From an uncultured Holophagaceae bacterium (lineage in GTDB: Bacteria; Acidobacteriota; Holophagae; Holophagales; Holophagaceae): a stretch of DNA of 54,297 nucleotides. How positions within the stretch are numbered: position 1 is the first letter of the stretch; each line of letters opens with the position of its first letter. The stretch lies in contig CAIOFF010000069.1 of the NCBI GenBank assembly GCA_903857495.1, positions 1 through 54,297 on the forward strand. The letters run 5' to 3'. The notes under the pieces were generated by a model that saw only the letters and a program-made list of their open reading frames with translations, ran no database searches and had not been told where the DNA came from. Made by a program: the position numbers and the translations under genes. This document shows positions 10,628 to 13,051 of the stretch, one piece after another.

Positions 10628-11731
10628 GTGAAACACGTCGTGTTCGCCCACCGGAAGCTGTCCTTCGGGGGCGGCGAGCGGGTGCTCATCGAGCAGGTGG
10701 CGGCGCTGGCCGAGCTGCCCGTCAAGGTGACCGTGCTCTTCCGGAAGGAGCCGGGCAGGCGGGACATCGAGCCGGAGCTGCGGGCCCGGAACCCGAACGT
10801 GGCGGAAGTGGTCCACCTGCCCGGAGCCCTGGGCGCCTTCCGCTGGCTCTGGCGGACCCAGCCCAACCTGCTGGTACTCTGCAACCACAAGGGGGTGCAG
10901 CGGGCCCTGCCCTGGCTGGCCCGGCTGGGCCTACGGCTGCCCACGGTGCTCACCCTCCACGAGCACTACGAGCGCCACCTGCGCAAGTACCGGGGCGTCC
11001 GTAACCTCGTGGACCGCTGGCTCTGCACCTACGACTTCACGGCCGCGGTCCGGGAGCACCTCAGCGGCGCCCCCTGCAGCATCATCCACCCCCTCTATCC
11101 GCGGCCCGAGGCGGCCGCCACCACCCTGGCGGAGCGGCAGGCTGCCCGGCGGCAGCTGGGTCTGCCCGAGGACGCCACCGTGGTGGGCTACGTGGGGCAG
11201 ATTGACGCCCGCAAGGATCCCCTGGGCGTGGTCCGCTTCGCCGAGGCTCTCGGCCCGGTCCACCTGCTCTTCGCGGGGCGGGAGGACACCGCCACCGCAG
11301 CCGACCTGGCGACCCGCCTGGCGACCTCACCCCTGCGGAACCGCACCCTGCGCCTGGGGCCCCAGGCCGACCTCGGCCCCGCCTTTGCCGCCCTCGACCT
11401 CTATGTGATGACCAGCAAGAACGAAGGCTTCTTCCCCCTGGCCCTCATCGAGGCCCTGGAGCGCGGTGTGCCCGTGCTGGCGCCCAGCGTCGGCGGCATC
11501 GGCACCGTCGTCCGGGACGGCGAGGGGGCCTTCCTCATCCCCAAGCCCGATGACCGACACCCCATCGACGAGGCCCTGCTGGTGGCCGCCGCGGACCGCC
11601 TCAGGCCGCTGCTGGCCGACCCCGCGGCCTGGGAGGACCAGCGCCGACAGGCCCACGCCTTTGGCACCGCCCTCACCCGCGGCTATGACGCCGCCGCGGC
11701 CTTCCGCGAGGCGGTGGCGCCATGGCTGTGA
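10628..11731 (+). CDS. Glycosyltransferase family 4
   Basis: A 367-residue GT4 (GT-B fold) enzyme. The N-terminal half has the nucleotide-sugar transferase start VFAHRKLSFGGGERV; the C-terminal half has VGYVGQIDARKDP and the E-x7-E pattern in SKNEGFFPLALIEALERG. It transfers a sugar from a nucleotide donor, here probably to the lipopolysaccharide core, given the GT9 gene and hldD downstream. The frame opens far upstream but GTG 10628, with GGAG four bases before it, gives the family N-terminus. Its stop TGA (11729-11731) overlaps a GTG at 11728 that begins the first copy of the GT9 5' repeat. Confidence 0.88.
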   Translation: MKHVVFAHRKLSFGGGERVLIEQVAALAELPVKVTVLFRKEPGRRDIEPELRARNPNVAEVVHLPGALGAFRWLWRTQPNLLVLCNHKGVQRALPWLARLGLRLPTVLTLHEHYERHLRKYRGVRNLVDRWLCTYDFTAAVREHLSGAPCSIIHPLYPRPEAAATTLAERQAARRQLGLPEDATVVGYVGQIDARKDPLGVVRFAEALGPVHLLFAGREDTATAADLATRLATSPLRNRTLRLGPQADLGPAFAALDLYVMTSKNEGFFPLALIEALERGVPVLAPSVGGIGTVVRDGEGAFLIPKPDDRHPIDEALLVAAADRLRPLLADPAAWEDQRRQAHAFGTALTRGYDAAAAFREAVAPWL

Positions 11732-11907
11732 CCCCCCGCCACGCGACTTGGCTGCGCTTCCCCAGGTTCGTCGGCGATGACGGGGCCCCCTCCGCGATCG
11801 CAAGCCAGAGGCGCAGCGGGAGCGAGAGGACGCGACTTGATGTCGCGTCCTCTCGGGGCGGTAGTCCGAGGCGAGCCTTGCCCGTTGCGCGCGGGAGGCG
11901 GTCGTGA
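11728..11907 (+). pseudogene. First truncated GT9 5' copy plus insert E1
   Basis: Reading from GTG 11728 gives the 17-residue GT9 start (VTPRHATWLRFPRFVGD) running into about 42 residues encoded by insert E1, rich in arginine and serine, then TGA at 11905-11907. The TGA overlaps the next GTG (GTGA). An alternative ATG at 11722 adds two residues. As a protein it is not a working glycosyltransferase. The seven synonymous differences from copies 2 and 3 suggest this copy was once the true start of a selected gene. Confidence 0.65.
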
Positions 11908-12083
11908 TCCCCCGCCACGCCACCTGGCTCCGCTTCCCGCGGTTTGTGGGCGATGACGGGGCCCCCTCCGCGATCGCAAGCCAGAGGCGCAGCGGGAGCG
12001 GGAGGACGCGACTTGATGTCGCGTCCGATCGGGGCGGTAGTCCGAGGCGAGCCTTGCCCGTTGCGCGCGGGAGGCGGTCGTGA
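11904..12083 (+). pseudogene. Second truncated GT9 5' copy plus insert E2
   Basis: Same build as the first copy: GTG 11904, 17 GT9 residues, the insert-encoded tail, and TGA at 12081-12083 overlapping the GTG of the full gene. GGGAGG at the end of E1 provides its ribosome site. Its 52-nt R part is identical to that of the full-length gene. If translated, ribosomes would be handed to the full gene by stop/start overlap. Confidence 0.65.
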
Positions 12084-13051
12084 TCCCCCGCCACGCCACC
12101 TGGCTCCGCTTCCCGCGGTTTGTGGGCGATGCCGCCATGCAGCTGCCGGTGCTGCGGCTGCTGCGGCAGCTCGGCGAGGGCCCCCTGGTGGTCTGGGGAC
12201 CGAAGACCACCGTGGGCCTGGTGGAGGACACCTGGTTCTGCGATGCCACCCTGCCCGACGTGGGCAAGCCTGGCCCCCTGGCCATGGCCCGGGTGCTGCG
12301 GGAACACAAGGCGGCCCGGAGCATCCACTTCCCGAAGTCCCTGCGCCCGGCCCTGGCGGCCTGGCTGGCACGGGTGCCCGAGCGCATCGGCGTGGACGAG
12401 AGCCTCGCCGGCCCGTTCAACACCCACAGCGGGCCCTTCTGGGACGCACCGGGTCCCTTCCTCCTGCGCTACCACGCGGTGCTGCAGCGGCGCTGGCCGG
12501 ACCTGCCCCCCATGCCCTTCGCGGACTTCGATCCGGGCGTGGCCGTGGACCTGCCCGGGCAGCCCCACCTCTGCCTCATGCCCGGGTCCACCTGGCCCTC
12601 CAAGGCCTGGCCCGTGGCCCACTACCGGACCCTGCTGCTGCGGGCCCGGGCGGAGGGCTTCGCTGTGGCGGTGCTGGGCACCCCGGACGAGGCGGCCACC
12701 TGCGCGGCGGTAGCCGGCAGCGAGGGCATCAACCTCTGCGGCCGCACCACCCTGAAGGAAGCCGCGGCCTGGATGCGGGCCGCCACGGCGGTGCTGGGCA
12801 ATGACTCGGGCCTCAGCCATCTGGCCGCCGCCTGCGGCGTCCCGGTGCTGGCCCTCTACGGCGCCACGGATCCCGGGGGCTCCACCCCCTGGGGACCCCA
12901 CAGCCGGGGGCTCCGCAAGGAGGGGGTGCCCTGCGCGCCCTGCTTCAAGCCCGCCTGCTTCACCCCGGGGCACCCCTGCCTGGAAGACATCGGACCGGAG
13001 CAGGTCTGGACCGAGCTGCTGGCGACCCTGCCGGTGCCTCCAGGTCCCTGA
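12080..13051 (+). CDS. Heptosyltransferase-like glycosyltransferase family 9
   Basis: A 323-residue GT9 enzyme. The N-terminal domain begins RHATWLRFPRFVGDAAM, the acceptor-side start typical of ADP-heptose:LPS transferases; the C-terminal domain has MPGSTWPSKAWP and the donor-binding run GNDSGLSHLAAACGVPVLAL followed by GATDPGGSTPWGP. It likely adds heptose to the inner LPS core in the cytoplasm; hldD, which makes the donor, lies 2 kb downstream. The GTG 12080 start with GGGAGG five bases upstream comes entirely from the repeat insert. Without the array the gene would have begun at 11728, overlapping the GT4 stop. Confidence 0.9.
   Translation: MIPRHATWLRFPRFVGDAAMQLPVLRLLRQLGEGPLVVWGPKTTVGLVEDTWFCDATLPDVGKPGPLAMARVLREHKAARSIHFPKSLRPALAAWLARVPERIGVDESLAGPFNTHSGPFWDAPGPFLLRYHAVLQRRWPDLPPMPFADFDPGVAVDLPGQPHLCLMPGSTWPSKAWPVAHYRTLLLRARAEGFAVAVLGTPDEAATCAAVAGSEGINLCGRTTLKEAAAWMRAATAVLGNDSGLSHLAAACGVPVLALYGATDPGGSTPWGPHSRGLRKEGVPCAPCFKPACFTPGHPCLEDIGPEQVWTELLATLPVPPGP

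Follow-up and report, generated by a model that had tools for sequence, protein, structure and literature searches.

Results

A glycosyltransferase gene start present three times

The window, by which we mean the whole stretch of DNA analysed (54,297 nt; contig C69 of G000, a draft genome of 70 contigs), has Holophagaceae/Geothrix sequences as its nearest named records. It carries a GT9 (heptosyltransferase-like) gene, orthologues of which are present in 39 of 41 genomes, and the start of this gene lies in a tandem array at 11728-12131 (TRF and repeat search; period 176, 2.3 copies, score 731). The array has the order R1-E1-R2-E2-R3 with an exact spacing of 176 nt, where R is the first 52 nt of the GT9 gene and E a palindromic element, and the gene is whole from R3 (Table 1). 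The upstream glycosyltransferase gene terminates on the GTGA of R1. No difference separates R2 from R3 in their 52 nt. Between R1 and R2, 8 of the first 51 positions differ, and 7 of the 8 changed codons are synonymous. R1 does not appear to be an allele of a sampled relative, being at least 8 changes away from all 27 single-R alleles.

The two inserts are 124 nt each and 98% identical. A preliminary description of this DNA had given both of them 14-bp palindrome arms; perfect arms of this length occur in the first insert only (11823-11836/11842-11855), and the second has a 9-bp core. The E1 hairpin (11823-11855) is lengthened by paired changes relative to that of E2 (11999-12031), which is the only notable difference between the two elements. 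The array itself and its spacing were as described, and so were the in-frame stop, GGGAGG and GTGA overlap: both R-E reading frames terminate on the GTGA of the next copy of R, with GGGAGG 5 nt ahead of its GTG (11893-11898, within P'1, for the first). The assignment of P', the stretch between E and the following R, is based on an inverted match, CGCGGGAGGCGG/CGCGGGAAGCGG in the window and -24 to +5 at the GT9 site of G005.

Table 1. Features of the array at the GT9 gene start.
Feature	Coordinates	Strand	Remarks
R1, first copy of the GT9 gene start	11728-11779	+	The single R of congeners lacking E has the same upstream gene junction
E1, palindromic element core	11780-11866	+	Covariance model match G000:C69:11780-11866, 88.2 bits
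Hairpin of E1, 14-bp arms	11823-11855		Inside E1
P'1, between E1 and R2	11867-11903	+	Probably R inverted across the insertion point and since diverged
R2, second copy of the GT9 gene start	11904-11955	+	
E2, second element core	11956-12042	+	Covariance model match, 100.2 bits; hairpin with 9-bp core
P'2, between E2 and R3	12043-12079	+	As P'1
R3, third copy of the GT9 gene start	12080-12131		Opens the intact GT9 gene
Intact GT9 (heptosyltransferase-like) gene, 323 aa	12080-13051	+	PF01075, E=1e-35
R1-E1 open frame, 59 codons	11728-11907	+	Stop overlaps the R2 start
R2-E2 open frame, 59 codons	11904-12083	+	Stop overlaps the start of the full GT9 gene

The GT9 site in other species

Four other species have R-E-R at this position of their GT9 gene: G005, G006 (Geothrix sp. 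SG200), G014 and G018 (G. terrae SG184). The other congeners read, the nearest relatives included, have a single R. On the gene-body tree this trait needs 4 changes, with at least 3 gains or losses forced by well-supported branches. Chance is excluded for the array, because of this recurrence at one site in four other species and because E abuts direct repeats in the great majority of its sampled copies (see below). The draft state of G000 might suggest an assembly artefact, an objection that the preliminary description had raised against itself, or an ordinary local tandem duplication. However, E1 and E2, like R1 and R2, differ in sequence, and the same structure is present in named isolates, in genomes of 1-2 contigs, at many genes and in dozens of species. 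Recurrence in other species and in genomes of 1-2 contigs rules out a single tandem duplication or assembly error, and we give this explanation virtually no weight.

Across the five GT9 cases, the unit lengths are 176, 176, 176, 179 and 236. The frame is kept in all five species despite several indels, so that the R1-E frame always ends on an NTGA start (GTGA or ATGA). The conserved frame and NTGA ending are consistent with translational coupling, in which ribosomes leaving the upstream gene would travel along the R1-E frame as far as the following NTGA and, by termination-reinitiation, keep the GT9 gene expressed.

E is a genus-wide family at gene ends

The idea of a dispersed palindromic element that occurs inside gene starts was borne out, and uniqueness to this site is contradicted: a covariance model search found E in 37 of 37 genomes of the genus Geothrix, with 1-22 copies in each. 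E is about 85 nt long with covarying stems (10 of 18 pairs show changes on both sides in alignment A2), and its hairpin is preceded by GGAG. The model found no E in any of the 16 other genomes of the class searched, and one isolated match among 7 other genomes of the phylum. No Rfam family matched E over its gathering score, and a known RNA family was set aside as its identity on that account.

A direct repeat spanning E scored at least 12 in 55 of 58 sampled copies, the 95% quantile for random positions being 11, and the left repeat copy ended no more than 12 nt from the start of E in 53 of the 58, mostly exactly there. These adjoining repeats measure 26-238 nt and are, with few exceptions, termini of conserved genes, with the junction inside coding sequence: 36 of the 55 are 3' ends and 19 are 5' ends, a few of these assignments being uncertain where frame inference failed. 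The gene body is always on the right side of E. The targets, named from their translated ends rather than from family searches, include miaB, queE, rsmI, mutL (at both ends), recR, xerD and clpB, as well as genes for a MacB-like permease, a histidine kinase, a ybgC-like thioesterase and a GIY-YIG protein, and tRNA genes. Purely intergenic insertions are rare. At the GT9 site of G018 (L017) and at G006:C1:654098 (L043), which are two different genes, E itself contains a further, related palindrome of about 57-60 nt, lying at the same internal position.

About two thirds of sampled copies lie at gene 3' ends, where restart is irrelevant, and the proposal that the insert keeps the gene intact by its own restart signals is not supported in that form. 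What stands of it is that the sequence at GT9 agrees with stop/start coupling as a means of keeping the gene expressed; E is not simply the carrier of these signals, and the stretch with the ribosome-binding-like GGGAGG resembles a diverged inverted copy of R more than a fixed part of E. The wholeness of the gene is due to the duplicated gene end R, rather than to signals in E. The same distribution bears on the possibility that E-P'-R2 is a regulatory leader, an attenuator-like switch in which P' would pair with R1 or R2. P' is able to pair with either copy, and frame and NTGA coupling are conserved at GT9, but the 3' sites have the same polarity and most congeners lack E at any given gene; we consider such a role highly improbable.

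The architecture is also found with other palindromes. A scan of 1.2 Mb of SG200 that was independent of E found 14 direct-repeat pairs with a gap of 70-260 nt, at least 9 of them R-palindrome-R at gene or tRNA ends, and unrelated, non-E palindromes share this arrangement. Three tRNA- or terminator-linked cases, L115 (G006:C1 154852), L137 (594628) and L167 (1186864), have inverted copies of 15-22 nt and are not matched by the E model. At miaB, E is present in 7 of 17 congeners, and a different palindromic insert, CTCGCGACC..GTGGGTCGCGGAGCGGAGTCC, follows codon 5 in two (L180 in G001, L175 in G015). This second insert type also repeats the gene start, which makes the miaB start a target of two families. 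An RERER array with a longer GC-rich unit and a 209-nt period (L057, G001:C5:72700-74900) belongs to a different sequence family.

An inverted arm often follows E

A segment that begins 2-4 nt after E is often the complement of target sequence on both sides of the insertion point; it typically reaches from +4 to +7 back through the junction into R, and the order is therefore direct - insert - inverted - direct. The own-target scores of 27 distinct sites total 251, compared with a maximum of 224.5 in 20,000 permutations (P<=5e-5), the arm being clear at only about a third of these sites. The best arms are those of L246 (25-nt match), miaB at L272 (17 of 19) and L274. The same arm lies beside non-E palindromes in SG200 (C1 positions 50921, 154852, 594628 and 1186864). 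The stretch between E and R2 is a duplicated upstream region at ybgC of G001/G033; as a general account this was rejected, an inverted copy of R fitting better at miaB, GT9 and other genes.

It is conceivable that E and its arm, as RNA or as single-stranded DNA, guide homing into gene ends and that R2 serves as a rescue copy supplied with the element. E would then be a non-coding selfish element whose target-complementary arm recognises gene ends and which carries or creates its own rescue copy, a natural counterpart of homing-with-rescue without a protein of its own. Such a guide would fit the covarying structured core and the complement that comes after it at a constant spacing and spans the insertion point, R2 is synonymously recoded relative to R1 at many sites, and at one site the arm tracks its target between two species (L246/L278). 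Over 80 ortholog pairs, however, the own arm-target fit is barely above that of cross pairs (19.1 vs 18.5), and self-targeting would be expected, given that R2, the intact target, is still matched by the arm. Homing by TnpB or reverse transcriptase was rejected because these helper proteins are too rare: among 18 congeners, TnpB (PF07282) is found only in G003 and G004 and reverse transcriptase (PF00078) in only 6, being absent from the E-rich G001, G016 and others. We rate guided homing as improbable, and the selfish element with its rescue copy likewise as a long shot.

History and probable spread of the sites

Ahead of R1, the ybgC sites match the native upstream sequence of E-less species, and the stretch between E and R2 is common to the E-bearing species and resembles that of G001/G033. 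These mixed upstream sequences point to a transfer of E-R2 by recombination, with an exchange inside R1. In G035 (L200) and G005 (L204), erosion at the ybgC-like gene has removed R1 together with part or all of E, and the post-E stretch still lies ahead of the start codon. Two near-complete genomes differ in copy number at the 3' end of a peptidase gene: G048 has RERER (L236, G048:C1) and G002 has RER (L237, G002:C1), with flanks that are about 95% identical. R copies from one genome are more alike than R copies from different genomes, which we read as concerted evolution.

Among 24 R-copy pairs, 18 of which differ, the changes are synonymous in 50 of 66 changed codons, compared with a neutral expectation of 24-29%; the P value, below 1e-14, is indicative only, R pairs not being independent and several species being counted per gene. 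The bias extends even to 3' ends, at which a detached copy is without a start codon. Gene conversion or recurrent exchange with functional alleles would account for it, and direct selection on the detached copy is another possible cause.

Candidate movers

E could also be a MITE whose transposase makes unusually long and variable target-site duplications, in which case R is a plain duplication and only insertions that overlap a gene end survive. Insertions of IS1549/IS1634 are known to be flanked by long direct repeats whose length varies, 8-514 bp (PMC2266710), a range that takes in those at E; at L283, R is 100% identical over 117 nt, 61 nt of which lie past the stop codon; and the ybgC duplication in G001/G033 includes upstream sequence. 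Intergenic insertions would be expected, yet they are rare, and neither the inverted arm nor the one-sided polarity is predicted. The IS1634 transposase (NF033559) is over the cut-off only in G000 and G003 among 16 congeners, the E-rich ones lacking it, and an IS1634 MITE was rejected because its transposase is too rare in the genus. We consider the MITE explanation unlikely, if a serious one. The IS1634-family transposases lie at L213 (G000:C29:103147) and L215 (G003:C213:15034). The ends of E, ACGGGGCCCC / GGGGGGTAGTC, pair only subterminally when set against each other alone. A RAYT-driven REP was rejected with the Y1 transposase (PF01797) found in 1 of 16 congeners only.

Discussion

Family, architecture, polarity, inverted complement, recurrence and frame conservation can all be read from the genomes compared. 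The explanation we favour, with confidence evenly balanced for and against, is that E, a palindrome, is mobile, that its insertion duplicates the gene end by template switching, and that recombination then spreads it. The arrival of E would be tied to gene-end copying and leave a truncated R1, then E and P', and an intact R2 that stays joined to the gene body, so that the host gene survives. Strand synthesis would turn back at the palindrome (hairpin-driven template switching), copy a short inverted stretch across the insertion point as P', then jump outside the gene end and copy it again as R2. Once formed, R-E-R could spread between species via homologous recombination, with gene conversion homogenising the R copies and unequal exchange producing RERER, as in the window. 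Mobility, template switching, recombination and translation are what we infer from these sequences, insertion itself from comparisons across species in a strain set without a very close E-bearing and E-less pair with identical flanks. The main fact against template switching is the fixed polarity of E relative to the gene interior, which random switching does not explain. The precise ends of E and its dispersal suggest a dedicated enzyme; the known movers tested do not fit.

Short palindromic repeats normally lie between genes, and E lives inside the ends of conserved, often essential genes. These genes nearly always remain whole, and E brings with it an inverted copy of its target, a combination that may represent an insertion route undescribed in the sources searched. 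The sites show how genes tolerate insertions, through duplicated ends and, where it applies, frame-preserving coupling. They offer dozens of natural before/after comparisons for testing the movement of a palindrome without an encoded transposase, and the G002/G048 peptidase sites are a natural pair for the study of copy-number change.

Comparison with known systems

We rate the E family as a kind of interspersed palindromic repeats and do not claim a new class, because most of the subscription literature lay outside our search. Within the sources searched, the combined architecture was not described, and a search that reached little of the subscription papers found no earlier account of repeats of this kind in Geothrix.

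Integrative elements with their att site in a gene end duplicate that end, keep an intact gene and have a fixed orientation. E sites share these properties, and synonymous differences as well, but E is about 85-124 nt without an integrase, and one E family uses many different genes. The palindromic elements of Rickettsia lie inside coding genes, in frame within the protein. E too is found inside coding genes; the Rickettsia elements are not known to duplicate the gene end. Like REP/RAYT sequences, E is a short GC-rich palindrome in many copies with GGAG before the hairpin; unlike them, it is not extragenic, its flanks are gene-end repeats, and the Y1 transposase occurs in only one of 16 congeners.

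Mycobacterial interspersed repetitive units (MIRUs) insert at start codons and carry an ORF coupled to the downstream gene at -4 (NTGA) spacing (PMC12548453). The likeness lies in short dispersed repeats at start codons, a coupled ORF and tandem copies that vary in number, and 5 of 5 R1-E ORFs end on NTGA, at the GT9 site only. MIRUs are found at start codons and not inside or behind genes, whereas E lies inside coding sequence, mostly at 3' ends and also in tRNA genes, with a duplicated gene end and an inverted arm. The long direct repeats of IS1549/IS1634 surround insertions of another kind: E is gene-free, few congeners have the transposase, and E sites carry an inverted arm.

Fold-back replication (ODIRA, tandem inversion duplication) produces direct - inverted - direct orders of kilobases with the turn at a palindrome (PMC4689423). 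E sites have the inverted copy between two direct copies, clear at the third of sites noted above, but they span tens of nucleotides and recur at gene ends. The turn in fold-back replication is a chance, short inverted repeat, whereas here a conserved, dispersed E occupies it in all 37 congeners.
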